Assembly: GCA_943788755.1 (NCBI GenBank) | Contig: CALSRM010000004.1 | Span: forward strand, 1 to 64,000 | Source of the DNA: an uncultured Flavobacteriales bacterium | GTDB taxonomy: Bacteria; Bacteroidota; Bacteroidia; Flavobacteriales_D; Parvicellaceae | Reading direction: 5' to 3' | Length of the DNA stretch: 64,000 nt | Made by a program: the position numbers and the translations under genes | Part shown: positions 18,970 to 28,443 of the stretch, one piece after another | Layout of the letters: every line of letters starts with the position of its first letter | How positions within the stretch are numbered: the first letter of the stretch is position 1 | Notes under the pieces: model-generated | The model's database searches: none | What the model was told of the DNA's origin: nothing | What the model saw: only the letters and a program-made list of their open reading frames with translations

Positions 18970-19699
18970 TTAAGGCTGACTACCTGCTTTGACCATTAAT
19001 GACTCTTTAAACAAATTAAACTCTGCAAAAAGTTGATCAAAACTTTCTAGTTCGAAGTAAAGTGTTTGAACAACATCCGTTTCAAACTCTGTACTTATAA
19101 CTCGATTCTAAATTAAATGGAATGACCTCCACATTTTCACTTAGGCTATGAATTGTTTCACCAAAAGAGGAGCAAATTCCAGCTCCATAAACTTTTCGAC
19201 CGTTTTCATAAATTAAACCAAACTCAATGGTGAACCAGTACAATCTTTGTAATTGAATAACAACTTCTTCATCATCAATAAACTCGACACCTAAATCTCC
19301 AAAGTCTTTCATAAACTGAGCAAACTTTGGCTCCGCTAATAATGGTGTATGGCCAAAAACATCGTGAAACATGTCTGGTTCTTCCAAATAATCCAATTGA
19401 TCCATTTTTCGAACCCAAGTAGAGGCACTAAATTTTCTTTGTGCTAAAAGCCGGAAAAAATCCTCTACTGGAATTAATCCAGGCACCACTTCTATAGACC
19501 AACCCGTTGACTCTGTTAACTTGGCATTCATTAGCTTAAAATCAGGAATTTGCTTTGCATTTAGAACCCCTTTCATCATCTCCAAACAAGACAAATACGC
19601 TGTACAACTTTTACCTTGTAAATTCTCTACCTGTCTTTCAAATAGTGTTTTCCACACTAATTGATCTTCTTCTTTGTATAGTTTGTATTCTTGTTTCAT
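18970..19699 (-). pseudogene. phhA: Phenylalanine 4-monooxygenase with a C-terminal frameshift (called ORF 19082-19699)
   Basis: EPDMFHDVFGHTPLL, LYWFTIEFGL, GICSSFGE; after the stop another frame continues VISTEFETDVVQTLYFELESFDQLFAEFNLFKESL. Confidence 0.75.
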
Positions 19700-19799
19700 A
19701 TAATCAATTCTTTCTTCATTATGTCCTTCACTTCCACTTCGCTCAGAGCAAGCTCGCTCAGGATGACGATAAAAAAGCAGGTAAAAGCCTAATGCAATA

Positions 19800-20810
19800 T
19801 TACATTGTTTCAGCTAATACTTTTAATTGTTTTAGTTGCTCAAACAATAAACCACCTTCTATATGACTTAGGGTTTGTTGACCATCAGAAAAAGCGTCTT
19901 CTGGTGTTTGATGTGCTTCAATAATAACACCATCTGCACCAGCAATAATTCCAGCCATAGCAATTTTCCCAACATGCTTACGTATGCCTATTCCGTGAGA
20001 AGGATCAATAACAACGGGTAAATGCGACTTCTCTTTTAAAATAGGAATTGCATTTATATCCAATGTATTTCGATAGGCTGTTTCAAAAGTTCTAATTCCT
20101 CGTTCGCAAAGAATAATTTTTTCATTGCCATTCGAAAAAACATATTCAGCACTTTGCAATAACTCATCAATAGAACCAGATATTCCCCGTTTTAACATTA
20201 CCGCTTTATCTACTTTCCCCAATTCATCCAACAAATTGAAATTTTGTGAATTCCGCGCACCTACTTGAAATATATCTATATAATCAAGCATAGGTTCAAT
20301 TTGAGAAACCTGCATGACTTCTGTGATAATTTTAATCCCATTCTCTTTGCAGTGCTTGTAGAATATTTTTAGACCTTCTATTCCTAAACCTCTGAAAGAA
20401 TAAGGAGAACTTCGTGGTTTATAAACACCACCTCGCATTATTTTAATCCCATTTTCAACCAAAAACTGAACGGTAGTTTCGATTTGCTCTTCACTTTCTA
20501 TGGAACACGGACCAGCCATAATAGCTAGCTCACTCCCCCCTATTTTAACACCATCTCCCAAGTCAACTATAGAAGGATTTAATTTCCATTTTTTAGAAAC
20601 CAATTTATAATCATCGGTCACTCGATGAATATCTTTGATGCCCTCTAGCGAACCTATATTGCGAATATCAAAATCTGCTTTTCCCGTTGCAACCAAATAA
20701 TCTTGAAATTGTGTTTTAACCAGTGCTGTTTTGTAGCCAATTTCTTGAATAATTATATCCAACTTTGTTCGACTCTCTGCTGTTATGTTTTTCTCTAACT
20801 GTATAATCAT
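19800..20810 (-). CDS. 3-deoxy-7-phosphoheptulonate (DAHP) synthase
   Basis: AGPCSIESEEQI, RGGVYKPRSSPYSFRG, DPSHGIGIRKHV; N-terminal small domain. Confidence 0.9.
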   Translation of the reverse strand: MIIQLEKNITAESRTKLDIIIQEIGYKTALVKTQFQDYLVATGKADFDIRNIGSLEGIKDIHRVTDDYKLVSKKWKLNPSIVDLGDGVKIGGSELAIMAGPCSIESEEQIETTVQFLVENGIKIMRGGVYKPRSSPYSFRGLGIEGLKIFYKHCKENGIKIITEVMQVSQIEPMLDYIDIFQVGARNSQNFNLLDELGKVDKAVMLKRGISGSIDELLQSAEYVFSNGNEKIILCERGIRTFETAYRNTLDINAIPILKEKSHLPVVIDPSHGIGIRKHVGKIAMAGIIAGADGVIIEAHQTPEDAFSDGQQTLSHIEGGLLFEQLKQLKVLAETM

Positions 20811-20822
20811 TGTAGTATGTTT

Positions 20823-21596
20823 TTATTCTTTTGATCTAATAGATTGAATAAATGAGCAAATATTATTATCCAATTCTCCTTCTTCAGATATTGCTTTAAT
20901 AAAAGCACTACCTATTATTCCGCCGTTTGCAATTGCTGTAGCTTCTTGAAAAGATGTTGCATCATGAATTCCAAAACCAACTTGAATGGGGTTTTTTAAA
21001 TCCAATGCTGCCAAACGACTTCCGTATTCTGAAAGGTTATTTGCAGAATTTCCGCCTGTAATGGAGTGACTAGAAACTGCATAAAGAAACCCAGATGAAG
21101 CTGCATCAATTTCTCTAATTCGCTCATCCGTAGAAGAAGGTGTTACCAAAAAAGTACACGTCAAGCCATATCGTTTAAAAATAGGCGCACATAGTTCATT
21201 AAATTCATCCACTGGTAAATCTGGAAGAATTAGCCCATCTACTCCAACTTCGCTTGCCATTTTACAAAATGGCTCTAAACCATATTGAAGAACTTGGTTA
21301 TAATAACCCATTAGCACCAAAGGGACTTGTGTTTTGCTTCGAATATCTTTTAACTGCTCAAAAAGAAGATCGAGATTCATTCCATTTTTAAGAGATTCAG
21401 TACTGCTAGCTTGAATGACTGGTCCATCCGCCAAAGGATCAGAATAAGGCATTCCGATTTCTATTAAATCTACACCAGCTTTATCCAAGTCTAAAATAAT
21501 ATCTTCCGTATCATTCAAATTTGGATAACCTGCAGTAAAGTAGATAGTCAGTACATCCGATGGTTTATTTTTAAATAAGTTCTCTATCCGATTCAT
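20823..21596 (-). CDS. trpA: Tryptophan synthase alpha subunit
   Basis: [34 protein letters not shown]. Confidence 0.95.
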
Positions 21597-22771
21597 AATT
21601 CAAAGTGTTTCATGTAGGTGGATAAATCTTTATCTCCTCTTCCCGAAAGATTAATAACTACAACGTCTTCCTTTTTAAATTCCAATTGTTTTAAGGATGC
21701 TAGTGCGTGAGCAGATTCTAATGCTGGAATAATACCTTCTAATCTTGTCAATTCCAATGCTGCGTCCAATGCTTCTTTATCTGTCACAGCCATAAAAGAA
21801 GCACGCTTCGTTTCAAATAAGTTTGCGTGCATCGGTCCGATTCCAGGATAATCCAAACCTGCAGAAATAGAATAAGGTTCTACAACTTGCCCATCTTTCG
21901 TTTGCATTAATAATGATTTACTCCCGTGCAACACTCCCTCTTTACCAACAAAAGAGGTTGCGGCAGTTTGCCCACTATCGATTCCCATACCAGAAGCTTC
22001 ACAAGCGATTAAACGGACATTTTCATCAGCTAAAAAATGATAAAATGCACCTGCAGCATTACTTCCACCACCAACACAAGCGATAATTGCAGTTGGCGTT
22101 TCAGAGCCTGTTTTTTCTTTTAATTGAATTCGCATTTCTTGGCTAATTACTGACTGTAATCTCGCCACCATATCTGGATATGGATGTGGGCCTACAACCG
22201 AACCAATAATATAATGTGTGTCATGTGGATGATTAATCCAGTCTCTGATTGCTTCATTAGTGGCGTCTTTTAACGTTTTACTTCCTGAAATTGCTGAAAT
22301 AACTGTAGCGCCTAACATTTTCATTCGGGCAACATTTGGAGCTTGGCGCTGAATATCAATCTCTCCCATATAAACAATGCACTCCAACCCCATTAATGCA
22401 CAAACTGTTGCAGTAGCAACACCATGTTGCCCAGCTCCTGTTTCAGCAATAATTCTTTTTTTACCCAACTTCTTTGCTACTAATATTTGACCAATTGTAT
22501 TGTTTATTTTGTGTGCTCCAGTATGGGTCAAATCTTCCCGTTTCAGATAAATATTTGTCTGATATTGTTCTGAAAGATTTTGCGCTAAATACAATGGTGT
22601 TGGGCGTCCTACGTAATCTTTTAACAAAGCATCAAAGTCTGTTTTAAATTCTTCAGAACCTAAAATATCAAGATACGCCAATCGAAGCTCCTCTACATTA
22701 TTGTGCAGTAATTCGGGAATGTACGCGCCACCAAATTTTCCGTAAAACCCTTTTTCATTTGCGTTATACAT
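21593..22771 (-). CDS. trpB: Tryptophan synthase beta subunit
   Basis: [38 protein letters not shown]. Confidence 0.95.
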
Positions 22772-23399
22772 GCTTATTCATATTAATTCCATTTATAAAT
22801 TCTCCAACTAAATCAATATTCTTCAGACCTGGTTTAATTTCAAACTTGCTGTTGATGTCCAAGACTGACAATAGCGGATAACTTTGACTGATTTCTTGTA
22901 AGGAGCTCAAGTGCTTCAACTCTAATCCTCCACTTAAAATAAAAGGAACAGCTCCTTTATACTTATTAAGAACCTCCCAGTTAAATTGTTTTCCATTTCC
23001 TCCAGGCTTTTTTCCTTTGGTATCGAACAATAAGTAATCGCAGAATTGGAATGCATTCGTATCATTCATATCGAAAGAATTATCGACTGAAAACACCTTG
23101 ATTATTCTTAATCCTGCAGTCTTTAGCGCTCTACAATAATCTACTGATTCACCCCCGTGTAACTGAACATAATCCAATCCAAAATCATTTACTGTTCGCA
23201 GTAGCTTATCTTTTGGTTCGCTGACAAAAACTCCGACTTTTTTAGTCGTATCAACCTTCAGATCTCTAACAAAGTTGCTAGCGACAGAGCAATTACGAGA
23301 AGATTTATCATAAAAAATGAAACCAATAAAACCAGGTTGAAGTTGTACTACTTCTTTGACATTAGCAACATTATTTAATCCACAGACTTTTATTTTCAT
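22764..23399 (-). CDS. trpF: Phosphoribosylanthranilate isomerase
   Basis: [40 protein letters not shown]. Confidence 0.9.
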
Positions 23400-24199
23400 G
23401 CTTCAACTTTTTCTTGCGTTTGAATCGCTTCAATAAATGTTCGGCATGCATTAGATGGATTTGGAGTTTTCATAAATTGCTCACCAATCAGAAAGCCATT
23501 ATATCCAACGCTTTTTAACAATGCAATATCTTCTGGAGTCTTAATACCACTTTCAGCAACTTTAACAACTGAATTCGGTAGTTTAGGAAAAAGGTCAATT
23601 GAATTCTGAAGAGAAACTTCAAACGTTTCAAGATTCCTATTATTAACACCAATTAACACCTCATCATTTGGCATTTTCTCCAATTCCTTTTCATTATGAA
23701 TTTCCAAAAGAACTTCTAATGAAAGCTTTTTTGCTAAATCCGAAAATCGAATAATTTCTTCTTTTGATAATACACTTGCAATTAATAATATCGCATCAGC
23801 GCCAATCGAACGAGCTTCTATTATTTGGTATTCATCAATAATAAAATCTTTTCTCAAAATTGGACAATAGTTCAACTTCCTTGCTTGTTTTAAATCATTA
23901 TCAGAACCACCAAAAAACTGTTCATCTGTTAAAACCGATAAAGCAGAAGCCCCTGATTGCATGTAGCCCAATGTTACCTCATCCACTTTTGCGTACTGAT
24001 TTATATTCCCTTTGCTAGGTGACTTTCGTTTGAATTCAGCAATTATCCCTGATTTATCTTCACGTAATAAATAGCTTTTTAAGCTAATTGTGGGAGAGTT
24101 GAAATAGATACTCTTTTCAAGAAGAGCTGTTGGAATCAATGATTTGCGTTCACCTACTTCGATTCTTTTTTGTGCTACTATTTTTTCTAATATGTTCAT
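23396..24199 (-). CDS. trpC: Indole-3-glycerol phosphate synthase
   Basis: IAEFKRKSPSKG, LRKDFIIDEYQI, GVNNRNLETF, VAESGI. Confidence 0.95.
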   Translation of the reverse strand: MNILEKIVAQKRIEVGERKSLIPTALLEKSIYFNSPTISLKSYLLREDKSGIIAEFKRKSPSKGNINQYAKVDEVTLGYMQSGASALSVLTDEQFFGGSDNDLKQARKLNYCPILRKDFIIDEYQIIEARSIGADAILLIASVLSKEEIIRFSDLAKKLSLEVLLEIHNEKELEKMPNDEVLIGVNNRNLETFEVSLQNSIDLFPKLPNSVVKVAESGIKTPEDIALLKSVGYNGFLIGEQFMKTPNPSNACRTFIEAIQTQEKVEA

Positions 24200-24217
24200 A
24201 CTATAATTCGTTACCTA

Positions 24218-25216
24218 TTAATTCAATACTAATTTCAATTTATTAATCGCCTTTTGAGAAACGATTGACTCTCTTGCTTTTTCCATTGCAGCTTCTAAAC
24301 TCATTGTTGGTTCAAAACACTGCATCGCTAATGCTGCATTTGCTACAATTACATTGGTTTGTGCCTCTGTCCCTTCACCACTTAATATTCTCGTAAACAA
24401 AGACGCTGCTTCTTTAATGGAGTTTCCTCCAAATAATTCTTCAGGTCTCAAAACTTCAGAATTAAAATCAGATGGAAACAATTGTAATTCTTTGTTTGTC
24501 CCTAACACTCTTAATGGGGCTGTCAATGTTGCTTCATCATAACCATCTACATTGTGTAAAACAGCGAACTGCTTCTGTTCTTCCTCCAGTAAATACTTAT
24601 ATTTTCTTGCAATTTTCAAATTATACACCCCAACTAATTGATGAGATGGTTGAGCTGGATTTACCAACGGTCCTAATAAGTTAAAGAATGTTTTAACGCC
24701 TAATTGTTTTCGTATTGGCGCAACATGTTTCATTGCAGAATGAAACAATGGAGCATGTAAAAAACAGATTCCTGCTTTATCTAGTTTGGAGTTTAGGTCA
24801 TCTGAATCTGTAGTAAATTTAAATCCTAATTCTTCCAAAACATTGGATGAGCCACAAAGAGAAGAAACACCATAATTACCGTGCTTTACAACCCGATAGC
24901 CGGCACCTGCAACAACAAAAGAAGAAATAGTAGAAACATTAAAAGTATTCTTTCCATCACCGCCTGTTCCGCACATATCAATTGCATTTGATGCGTCGAT
25001 TTCTACTTTAGAACACAAACTCAATAAAGCATCTCTAAAACCCTTCAACTCATCAAGCGTTATCTCTTTCATATTAAAAGCCGAGATAAACGACGTCATT
25101 TCAATTTCAGAAATTCCTCCATTTCCCATCTCTACCAATACATTAAATGCTTCTTGGTAAGAAAGTGGTATCTGATTGTATATTTTTTCTAAAATGTTTT
25201 TCATTTTACTTTTCAT
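24218..25216 (-). CDS. trpD: Anthranilate phosphoribosyltransferase
   Basis: DMCGTGGDGKNTFNVST, KHGNYGVSS, FNLLGPLVNPA. Confidence 0.95.
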   Translation of the reverse strand: MKSKMKNILEKIYNQIPLSYQEAFNVLVEMGNGGISEIEMTSFISAFNMKEITLDELKGFRDALLSLCSKVEIDASNAIDMCGTGGDGKNTFNVSTISSFVVAGAGYRVVKHGNYGVSSLCGSSNVLEELGFKFTTDSDDLNSKLDKAGICFLHAPLFHSAMKHVAPIRKQLGVKTFFNLLGPLVNPAQPSHQLVGVYNLKIARKYKYLLEEEQKQFAVLHNVDGYDEATLTAPLRVLGTNKELQLFPSDFNSEVLRPEELFGGNSIKEAASLFTRILSGEGTEAQTNVIVANAALAMQCFEPTMSLEAAMEKARESIVSQKAINKLKLVLN

Positions 25217-25772
25217 TTAACCAATTTTCAATCATCTTTTTCCCTTCAGGAGTCAGAACTGATTCTGGGTGAAATTGAACTCCTGTTACAGCAAACTCTT
25301 TATGACGAATAGCCATAATGCAATCGTCTTTTGACCTCGCTACAACTTCTAAATCAGCTACATTTTCATCTTTCATTGCCCAAGAGTGATACCTTCCAAC
25401 TTCAGTTGGATTAGATACATTATTAAAAAGAGCGTCCTGTTTCTCAATACGCATAGAACTAGCAACTCCATGATAAACTTCATCCAAATTAATAAGATTA
25501 CCTCCATATACTTCTGCAATTGCCTGCATTCCTAGACAAACTCCTAAAATAGGTTTCGAGCTACCGTAGTGTTTAATTACGGCTTTTATTATACCTGCAT
25601 TTTTTGGTAATCCTGGTCCTGGAGAAATTAAAATTTTATCGAATGCTTCAATTTCATCTAATTCAATTTCATCGTTACGTCTTACCACAACTTCGCCCGC
25701 AGAAAAATCTTTAAGATACTGTACTAAATTGTACGTGAATGAATCATAATTATCTATTACCAATATTTTCAT
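25206..25772 (-). CDS. trpG: Anthranilate synthase component II (glutamine amidotransferase)
   Basis: DNYDSFTYNLVQYL, LGVCLGMQAIAE, VQFHPES. Confidence 0.93.
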   Translation of the reverse strand: MKILVIDNYDSFTYNLVQYLKDFSAGEVVVRRNDEIELDEIEAFDKILISPGPGLPKNAGIIKAVIKHYGSSKPILGVCLGMQAIAEVYGGNLINLDEVYHGVASSMRIEKQDALFNNVSNPTEVGRYHSWAMKDENVADLEVVARSKDDCIMAIRHKEFAVTGVQFHPESVLTPEGKKMIENWLNEK

Positions 25773-27154
25773 TTAATGTCCTCCGCTTTTTTAATGGCCA
25801 TCCTCAATGCCCCTATTTTATTATCTACTTCTTTTAATTCTGATTCTGGAACTGAATTAACCACCACTCCAGCTCCTGCCTGATAGTGTAACTCATTATT
25901 TTGACTTAAAAAGGAACGAATCATTATTGCATGGTTTAAATTTCCGTTCAATTCAATGAAGCCAATCCCACCTCCGTAATAATTTCGAGAAACAGGTTCG
26001 TATTTATCTATTAGCTGCATAGCCTTATATTTTGGTGCACCTGACAAAGTTCCTGCTGGAAAGGTTTTACCAAAAACTTCCAATGGATTGTAATCTAAAG
26101 GTAAAGTTGCTTCTACTTCAGATACCATATGAATGACATGACTAAAAAACTGAATTTCTTTAAAGGCTTTTACCTCAATATTCCCACCTACTCTTCCCAA
26201 ATCATTTCGAGCCAAATCAACTAACATTACATGCTCTGCATTTTCTTTTTCGTCTGCTTTTAACTCTTCTGCGGATTTCAAATCTTGCTTGAAGTTACCC
26301 GTTCGTTTGTACGTTCCTGCAATCGGATTTATTAAGGCTATTCCCTTATCTATCTTAATTTGTGCTTCAGGAGAAGATCCGAATATTTTATAATTACCCA
26401 TATCAAAGTAGTACAAATATGGAGATGGGTTGATAGACCTTAGAGCTCTGTAAACCTGAAAGTCATCTCCTTTGAATTTTTGTTTAAACCTTCTAGATAA
26501 CACCAATTGAAAAACATCTCCTAATTGACAATGCTCCTGACCCTTTTCTATTTGAGAAAGAAACTTTTCTGGACTCGTAAAACAATCCTCATCTTCCACT
26601 TTGGAAAAAGGGTAAGCGCTGAATCGTAAGGATTGAACACGCTCTATTAGTTGCTCTTGTTCAGGTTCCTGTTGCTCTTGAACAAACTCTGTAAATGTCA
26701 ATTCATTGGTGAAATGATCAATTGCGATGACGTGTCGATAAAAAGAGTAACTCATTAATGGAATACTGTCGTCCAATTGTTTTTCATCTAGCTCGAGTGT
26801 TTCAAAAACCGAAATTGCATTGTAGTTGGTATGTCCAAAAACTGCTTGAAAAGAATCTCCTTCAATTTTGAAAGATTTTACATATGCAGAAAAAAAAGAA
26901 GGTGCCTTTTGAACATCCTTGCTTACAATTCTTTTAGCCCCATTGTCTGTTATTGCAACTTCATTATGAGTTGCTGTAAAAGTCGAAATTGGACCAAGAC
27001 AAATAAAAGAGTGAGACTTTTCTCGCTTTTCATTCAAATTACTCTCCAGCAGAACGGCATTCGGATAAAGATCCCGAAGCTTTAAATATATACTAACCGG
27101 AGTTAGTGTATCAGCTATAATTGTATTTTGTATTGTTAGTAGTTTCATTTTCAA
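25769..27154 (-). CDS. trpE: Anthranilate synthase component I
   Basis: PSPYLYYFDMG, GSSPE, NPIAGTYKRTG, LVDLARNDLGRV, AGTLSGAPK. Confidence 0.95.
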   Translation of the reverse strand: MKMKLLTIQNTIIADTLTPVSIYLKLRDLYPNAVLLESNLNEKREKSHSFICLGPISTFTATHNEVAITDNGAKRIVSKDVQKAPSFFSAYVKSFKIEGDSFQAVFGHTNYNAISVFETLELDEKQLDDSIPLMSYSFYRHVIAIDHFTNELTFTEFVQEQQEPEQEQLIERVQSLRFSAYPFSKVEDEDCFTSPEKFLSQIEKGQEHCQLGDVFQLVLSRRFKQKFKGDDFQVYRALRSINPSPYLYYFDMGNYKIFGSSPEAQIKIDKGIALINPIAGTYKRTGNFKQDLKSAEELKADEKENAEHVMLVDLARNDLGRVGGNIEVKAFKEIQFFSHVIHMVSEVEATLPLDYNPLEVFGKTFPAGTLSGAPKYKAMQLIDKYEPVSRNYYGGGIGFIELNGNLNHAIMIRSFLSQNNELHYQAGAGVVVNSVPESELKEVDNKIGALRMAIKKAEDIK

Positions 27155-27173: not shown

Positions 27174-27207
27174 AAAAAAAGGCTTGTCGCAATCGACAAG
27201 CCTTTTT
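27174..27207 (-). terminator. trp attenuator: intrinsic terminator between trpL and trpE
   Basis: Perfect 9-bp stem 27181-27189/27194-27202 (GGCTTGTCG-ATTG-CGACAAGCC on the minus strand) followed by TTTTTTT. Confidence 0.88.
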
Positions 27208-27230
27208 AAATATTTAATATAATTAATAGC

Positions 27231-27296
27231 TTAGCCTATCTGCGACACATTGTGTTTTGCAGACCACCAATAATTATTCGATTTCAAGTTTTTCAT
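27231..27296 (-). CDS. trpL: trp operon leader peptide MKNLKSNNYWWSAKHNVSQIG (unannotated small ORF)
   Basis: ATG at 27296, tandem TGG TGG at 27269-27264, TAA at 27233-27231; overlaps hairpin TCTGC...GCAGA (27263-27239) and lies upstream of the terminator and trpE. Confidence 0.88.
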   Translation of the reverse strand: MKNLKSNNYWWSAKHNVSQIG

Positions 27297-27304
27297 TATG
27301 AGCA

Positions 27305-27312
27305 CAAAGTTA
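27305..27312 (-). promoter_or_regulatory. Candidate -7 element of the trp operon promoter
   Basis: TAacTTTG on the minus strand, 8 nt upstream of the trpL ATG; no clear -33 TTTG at N19. Confidence 0.45.
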
Positions 27313-27384
27313 ACGTACTTAATAACCTTTTTCCTAATTAAACCTTAAAAAAAATTCATTTATGTTAATGAATACCTAAGATCA

Positions 27385-28443
27385 CTACTTTACCCTGCTA
27401 AATTTCAATGCTTTAAGCATTATATTAGGCAAAGGCTTTGAAGGGTGTCTTTTTTCTACATTCAAATTTATTCCTAGCTTTTCAATAATCGGAATTTTGT
27501 ATACTTCAATCAATTCAATCAGGGTTCCATCAGGATCTTCAATATAGGTACAATGCACTTTTGTTGAATCTCCCATACTTAAAACATTTTTGGTGTCGCA
27601 TGTAAAACCAAAACCAACTTTATCTAACTCCTCTCCCAATTCTTTCATCCCCCTTACGTCAAACCCTAAGTGAACAAAACCTATATCTCCCCAAAGTCTA
27701 CCTTCGTAAATCTTGATGGGTTTCCTTTCTGATAAATCTTGAACTAATTCTATATAAGTCTCTCCTGATAATTTTGTAAAACCTCCTCCAGATGGATTGG
27801 ATTGCGTTAAAAGGACTCTTCTAAACTTTCCTTCACCTCCCGGTAATTTTGACCAATCTGCAAAAACTTCAGAAGTATCATAAACTACCTTATCATACCC
27901 CAAAACATTAGCATACAATTTCATAGCAGCAGCAATGTCAGAAACGCCAATACTACAACCAGCAATTCCATTGGTCACTCTTCCCGCATTTGTAAAAGAG
28001 TGCTTTGTCGGAATTACTTGAAAATACTGTCCTTGAATATCTTTTACATAAAAAGTATCCCAACCATTTGGTGTTTTTATCAAATCCGTAACTAGATCTG
28101 CATTATTTTCTTTAAAAAAAGCATATGCCTTTTTGACATCTAGTGATTTAATAAAACCTGTATAGATTCCTAAATCGCCTATTTGAAAAGCCTGTTCTGC
28201 ATGTGCAGCTTGAAATGTAGTGGGACAAACTACCTCCATAGCACAACCCCCTTGGAGGTTTAGAATCATTGCAGCTCTTTTCGTAATTGTTTTGTTTTCT
28301 GTGTAGATATCCATCAATGGAGCTCCGGCTTCATCATTAAAAAATGGAATATCCATTCCAAAAAACTTTCTATACCAGGCCCATGCATCTGCATGCTGAG
28401 GTACACCAACTCCTAAATGTTGAATTCCTTGTACTGTATACAT
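27385..28443 (-). CDS. hppD: 4-hydroxyphenylpyruvate dioxygenase
   Basis: Two VOC halves; FVHLGFDVRGMKEL, GTLIELIEVYKIP. Confidence 0.85.
   Translation of the reverse strand: MYTVQGIQHLGVGVPQHADAWAWYRKFFGMDIPFFNDEAGAPLMDIYTENKTITKRAAMILNLQGGCAMEVVCPTTFQAAHAEQAFQIGDLGIYTGFIKSLDVKKAYAFFKENNADLVTDLIKTPNGWDTFYVKDIQGQYFQVIPTKHSFTNAGRVTNGIAGCSIGVSDIAAAMKLYANVLGYDKVVYDTSEVFADWSKLPGGEGKFRRVLLTQSNPSGGGFTKLSGETYIELVQDLSERKPIKIYEGRLWGDIGFVHLGFDVRGMKELGEELDKVGFGFTCDTKNVLSMGDSTKVHCTYIEDPDGTLIELIEVYKIPIIEKLGINLNVEKRHPSKPLPNIMLKALKFSRVK

Follow-up and report, generated by a model that had tools for sequence, protein, structure and literature searches.

The tryptophan attenuator of E. coli (trpL) combines tandem Trp codons with alternative pairings of RNA strands 1:2, 2:3, and 3:4 and a terminator with a U tract. 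T-box leaders sense uncharged tRNA and switch a terminator. For Bacteroidota, a leader RNA termed Bacteroid-trp (Rfam RF01692, described as "Bacteroidete tryptophan peptide leader RNA") was published in 2010 by Weinberg et al. as a probable cis-regulatory RNA of Bacteroidetes (Table 1 in PMC2864571), and it has been placed upstream of the Flavobacterium psychrophilum trp operon, where the analogy to E. coli was drawn (PMC6414381). Our literature search found no experimental work on trp attenuation in Bacteroidota. The window analyzed here, a stretch of 64,000 nucleotides from an uncultured Flavobacteriales bacterium (GCA_943788755.1, contig CALSRM010000004.1), carries an element of this kind on its minus strand ahead of trpE. 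From its sequence and that of its relatives, we consider it highly probable that this element is the leader attenuator of the trp operon, a Bacteroid-trp member acting as a stalling switch with a 2:3 antiterminator.

At the gathering threshold, Rfam returned nothing in the window. Below it, RF01692 matched positions 27195-27316 of the minus strand across the full model (1-131) with 47.6 bits (E 1.2e-4), which is 1.4 bits under the gathering score of 49, a curators' annotation threshold rather than a biological feature. Orthologous leaders ahead of trpE in all three congeners (G001, G002, and G003) scored 49.8, 53.1, and 59.6 bits, all above the cut-off, and the location upstream of Bacteroidota trp genes also agreed with the family: trpE comes next in the window, and the relatives are Flavobacteriales MAGs, one of them titled Crocinitomicaceae. 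A sub-threshold Rfam score was not accepted as sole evidence, since coding genes can yield weak scores as well (L020, 36.8 bits); the identity of the attenuator was settled by the congeners and the trpE context. The idea of a novel element was rejected in view of the full-length match, and, judged by match and location, the element is a further member of the published Bacteroid-trp family and not new. The earlier note had remarked on proteobacterial-type trp logic in a Bacteroidota operon, but this is no unexpected transfer: a Bacteroidota family of this type was already described (RF01692, PMC2864571; PMC6414381). The window element shares with RF01692 its position before trp genes, a leader ORF with Trp codons, a leader hairpin, and the start of the terminator arm (GGCUUGUC); unlike the element seen here, the model ends in the terminator 5' arm and thus contains neither the 3:4 terminator nor the 2:3 antiterminator. 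The proteobacterial Trp_leader (RF00513) had no match in the window at E ≤ 10, and T-box models had none there either at the gathering threshold or at E ≤ 10. With the E. coli attenuator (RF00513), the element has in common the tandem Trp codons, the 1:2/2:3/3:4 strands, and the terminator with its U tract, whereas it differs in its Bacteroidota promoter and, probably, in having almost no 5' leader. The likeness to a T-box lies in the sensing of uncharged tRNA and the switching of a terminator, but sensing in the window would proceed via a translated ORF.

Table 1. Features of the trp leader region and operon in the window
Feature	Position	Strand	Basis
Bacteroidota -7 promoter element TAACTTTG, with its end 8 nt from the leader ATG	27305-27312	minus	TAnnTTTG consensus match (PMC6847099, PMC7366714)
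Leader peptide ORF trpL, MKNLKSNNYWWSAKHNVSQIG, 21 codons	27296-27231	minus	sequence; WW/WWW leader kept in order-wide trpE loci
trpL start ATG	27296-27294	minus	sequence
Tandem Trp control codons TGG TGG	27269-27264	minus	sequence; conserved in relatives
Pause hairpin (strands 1:2), TCTGC/ACAC...GTGT/GCAGA, just 3' of the Trp codons	27263-27239	minus	-7.6 kcal/mol
Strand 2, 5' half of the antiterminator: TGTCGCA (27247-27241) and GATAGGCT (27240-27233)	27247-27233	minus	duplex energies, folding
trpL stop TAA	27233-27231	minus	sequence
Intrinsic terminator: 14-bp stem (9 GC-rich and 5 A-U), ATTG loop, T7	27207-27174	minus	-19.7 kcal/mol
Strand 3, terminator 5' arm GGCTTGTC, partner of GATAGGCT	27202-27195	minus	duplex energies, folding
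TGCGACA, loop end and start of 3' arm, partner of TGTCGCA	27191-27185	minus	sequence, duplex energy; not conserved as a rule
trpE, first regulated gene	25769-27148	minus	NCBIfam trpE_most, E 2e-119
trpG, trpD, trpC, trpF, trpB, trpA, and DAHP synthase (aroF-type), tightly packed	19800-25772	minus	NCBIfam

The features of the locus are collected in Table 1. On the same strand, trpA is followed by a DAHP synthase and by a homologue of phenylalanine 4-monooxygenase (19082-20810), and the latter may lie on the shared trp transcript. Upstream of the leader lies a gene of the same orientation (27385-28443; 352 aa) that had no NCBIfam match at E 1e-10. The window contains four short ATG ORFs with a WW pair, and a terminator lies 3' of one of them, trpL. 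That a WW ORF came by chance to lie next to a common intergenic terminator belonging to the upstream gene has a negligible probability: although short WW ORFs arise about twice per shuffled window when no terminator is demanded, none with a terminator appeared in 20 shuffled windows, and conservation across the order already refutes this account. That conservation was read from the DNA upstream of trpE after a TrpE search in 249 genomes of the order, which gave 47 loci, 46 of them evaluable (L057, whose trpE match lacked the first 99 residues, was left out); a search of public genomes by TrpE words yielded four close relatives only. A leader ORF with an abundance of codons for Trp, the regulated amino acid, was conserved, with a WW or WWW short ORF ahead of trpE in 43/46 loci and WQW or WRW at the same place in the remaining three (L071, L079, and L085); the earlier note had proposed to look for conserved WW codons, along with covarying stems, in related Flavobacteriales. 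The terminator in relatives starts 34-65 nt 3' of the Trp codons; that of L030/L090 escaped the script owing to a mismatch but is visible when the sequence is read. Since the RF01692 gathering level was reached in only 6/311 genomes of the order, against 46/46 evaluable trpE loci, the Rfam cut-off under-reports the element in Flavobacteriales. The element is real, conserved, and most likely functional, its kind being ordinary, like the classical trp attenuator, and it is an almost universal control region of the trp operon in Flavobacteriales.

The 21-codon ORF with tandem Trp codons and the pause hairpin immediately 3' of them, both pointed out previously, were found with all their elements in place, and the pause-hairpin region folded better than shuffled sequences in the relatives (mean z -1.32) and in the window (z -1.66). 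The perfect 9-bp terminator with T7 of the earlier note is likewise present ahead of the first structural gene, with its core GGCTTGTCG-ATTG-CGACAAGCC at 27202-27181 and its T7 tract at 27180-27174, but the stem is longer than had been drawn, as an A5:T5 segment extends the nine GC-rich base pairs to 14 bp. The proposed complementarity of TGTCGCA to TGCGACA also proved perfect (7 bp, -11.3 kcal/mol) but forms only the outer half of the antiterminator; the inner GATAGGCT:GGCTTGTC helix (8 bp, -10.5 kcal/mol) had been missed. On strand 2 the two helices adjoin directly, and on the opposite side three bases (GAT) lie between them. When folding began at 27254, as if a stalled ribosome masked everything before, the GATAGGCT helix formed while the 3' arm was not yet made, and with the 3' arm just complete the best fold was the combined antiterminator (-19.5 kcal/mol), its inner part re-registered so that GGC and AAGCT paired with the terminator 5' arm. 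With strand 1 still masked and the A5:T5 stem base included, the equilibrium fold was the terminator (-24.2 kcal/mol); antitermination must therefore be kinetic. Taken as a single sequence, the window supported the 5'-arm pairing (p 0.035) no better than the 3'-arm pairing (p 0.055).

Comparison across relatives separated the two pairings. For 49 distinct Flavobacteriales leaders, the best duplex of the sequence 3' of the Trp codons with either the 5' arm plus loop or the loop plus 3' arm was computed, each mode with 200 dinucleotide shuffles per leader as controls. Strand 2 paired with the 5' arm plus loop at a mean of -11.06 kcal/mol (mean z -1.90; p ≤ 0.05 in 27/49) and with the loop plus 3' arm at a mean of -8.78 kcal/mol (mean z -0.57; p ≤ 0.05 in 4/49). 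Swapping terminators between species weakened the 5' arm plus loop pairing from -11.06 to -8.62, and 0/5000 permutations reached the own-pair value, with the caveat for both shuffles and swaps that kinship among the leaders was not fully removed. This own-versus-swapped effect persisted when each distinct terminator was represented by a single leader (n=39), and the effect for the loop plus 3' arm was about half as large. For the 5' arm alone, the signal was weaker (P 0.014 by permutation, and 0.003 on the reduced set of one leader per terminator), meaning that much of the pairing signal comes from the loop, and the predicted strand 3 of the conserved antiterminator is thus one that reaches into the terminator loop. 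Because pairing with the 5' arm plus loop is far commoner, the conserved logic is that of a classical 2:3 antiterminator, mutually exclusive with the 3:4 terminator; the covariation is clear in the set and modest in the window alone. Neither the antiterminator nor the terminator is covered by the Rfam model; both are now given with covariation support. The earlier note had drawn the attenuator with TGTCGCA pairing only with the loop and 3' arm, so that antitermination would amount to capture of the 3' arm. That design, which we consider unlikely, draws on the 7 bp formed without a mismatch in the window (-11.3 kcal/mol, p 0.055), on a counterpart with one G-U in G001 (-9.3 kcal/mol), and on the presence of the helix in the best fold after transcription of the 3' arm. 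The helix is perfect in G003 as well, but G002 keeps just 5 bp of it and in G016 it was not found; across the set, 3'-arm pairing rarely beat the shuffles, and the 3' arm is the partner transcribed last, leaving little time before the U tract. Sole 3'-arm capture as a general rule was accordingly rejected (4/49 against 27/49), and the conserved design is not one in which the loop and 3' arm replace the 5' arm as partner of strand 2. The TGTCGCA:TGCGACA helix most likely extends the classical 2:3 antiterminator. Extra Trp codons near the end of the leader peptide (SWCAWR, RWCEWR) are frequent in the larger family f4 (e.g., L029, L030, and L033); they fall in the stretch that forms strand 2 and may be either sensing codons or a by-product of RNA pairing.

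Trp attenuation by ribosome stalling, as the earlier note had proposed, is well supported by this conservation, apart from its choice of the 3' arm as the usual partner of strand 2. A shortage of tryptophan very probably switches the operon on through the leader peptide and two competing folds. We infer the ribosome positions, the coupling of transcription to translation, and the response to Trp as follows. Transcription would begin a few bases upstream of the leader ATG. When Trp-tRNA is sufficient, the ribosome would run to the leader stop and cover strand 2, the terminator would form, and RNA polymerase would halt before trpE. With scarce Trp-tRNA, the ribosome would stall on UGG UGG and mask the 5' arm of the pause hairpin, and the freed strand 2 would pair with the terminator 5' arm (GATAGGCU:GGCUUGUC) and then with the loop and 3' arm (UGUCGCA:UGCGACA), so that the terminator would fail and the operon would be transcribed. 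It is quite improbable that the leader ORF acts otherwise, through Rho or through control of trpE translation, with the hairpin serving as a constitutive terminator only; the sequence is compatible with such a route, but the strong intrinsic terminator at a conserved spacing and the covarying 2:3 pairing speak against it, and no pairing that involves the trpE start was noticed.

The promoter bears on how the ribosome would enter this stalling switch. TTTG was located 4-10 nt before an in-frame leader start in 39/51 distinct Flavobacteriales leaders, compared with 22/238 ATGs taken from the same DNA as controls; the binomial P for this spacing (2e-30) is overstated, given that the leaders share ancestry and that each could contribute several in-frame starts. 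Transcripts of F. johnsoniae start 4-5 nt after the -7 element (PMC6847099). Given an element 4-10 nt before the start in most species, the RNA 5' end is predicted to lie 0-6 nt from the AUG. Among F. johnsoniae transcripts with a probable promoter, 87% have leaders of >10 nt and at most about 13% have leaders of ≤10 nt (PMC6847099), and 3.7% of 5' UTRs in B. thetaiotaomicron are <10 nt (PMC7366714). On balance, we favor the view that the transcript from which Flavobacteriales translate the trp leader peptide is nearly leaderless. If true, the ribosome would load directly on the RNA 5' end, with coupling to RNA polymerase achieved without a Shine-Dalgarno site. As a family-wide rule, this layout was rejected: class-wide, TTTG was mostly 16-23 nt before the start and 3-10 nt before it in 8/29.

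The same genome holds a His attenuator-like leader, MNLKKLHHHHFYNCSQASGK ending in a stop, followed by the terminator AACCCGTCTGAGTAAATCAGGCGGGTTTTTT and then hisG (G000:C1:517.7-518.7 kb; L130, L146), the latter named from its own sequence and from the hisD-like ORF after it. No Rfam match was obtained for this leader at E ≤ 0.1. A His-rich leader was present at 25/26 of the order-wide hisG loci read. Together, the near-leaderless layout and the His counterpart suggest that leader-peptide attenuation is a general device of Flavobacteriales. A conserved stretch, commonly GTTTACTCAGAC, lies between the his terminator and hisG (L146-L175) and is complementary, generally across 8-12 bp, to the terminator 5' arm and loop at all loci with a script-found terminator except L174. 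This stretch changes together with the terminator, for example to TAATCCAAGC in L170 and CTACCAAGC in L175. It could pair with the hisG start ATGAGTAAA, perhaps as a second, translational layer.
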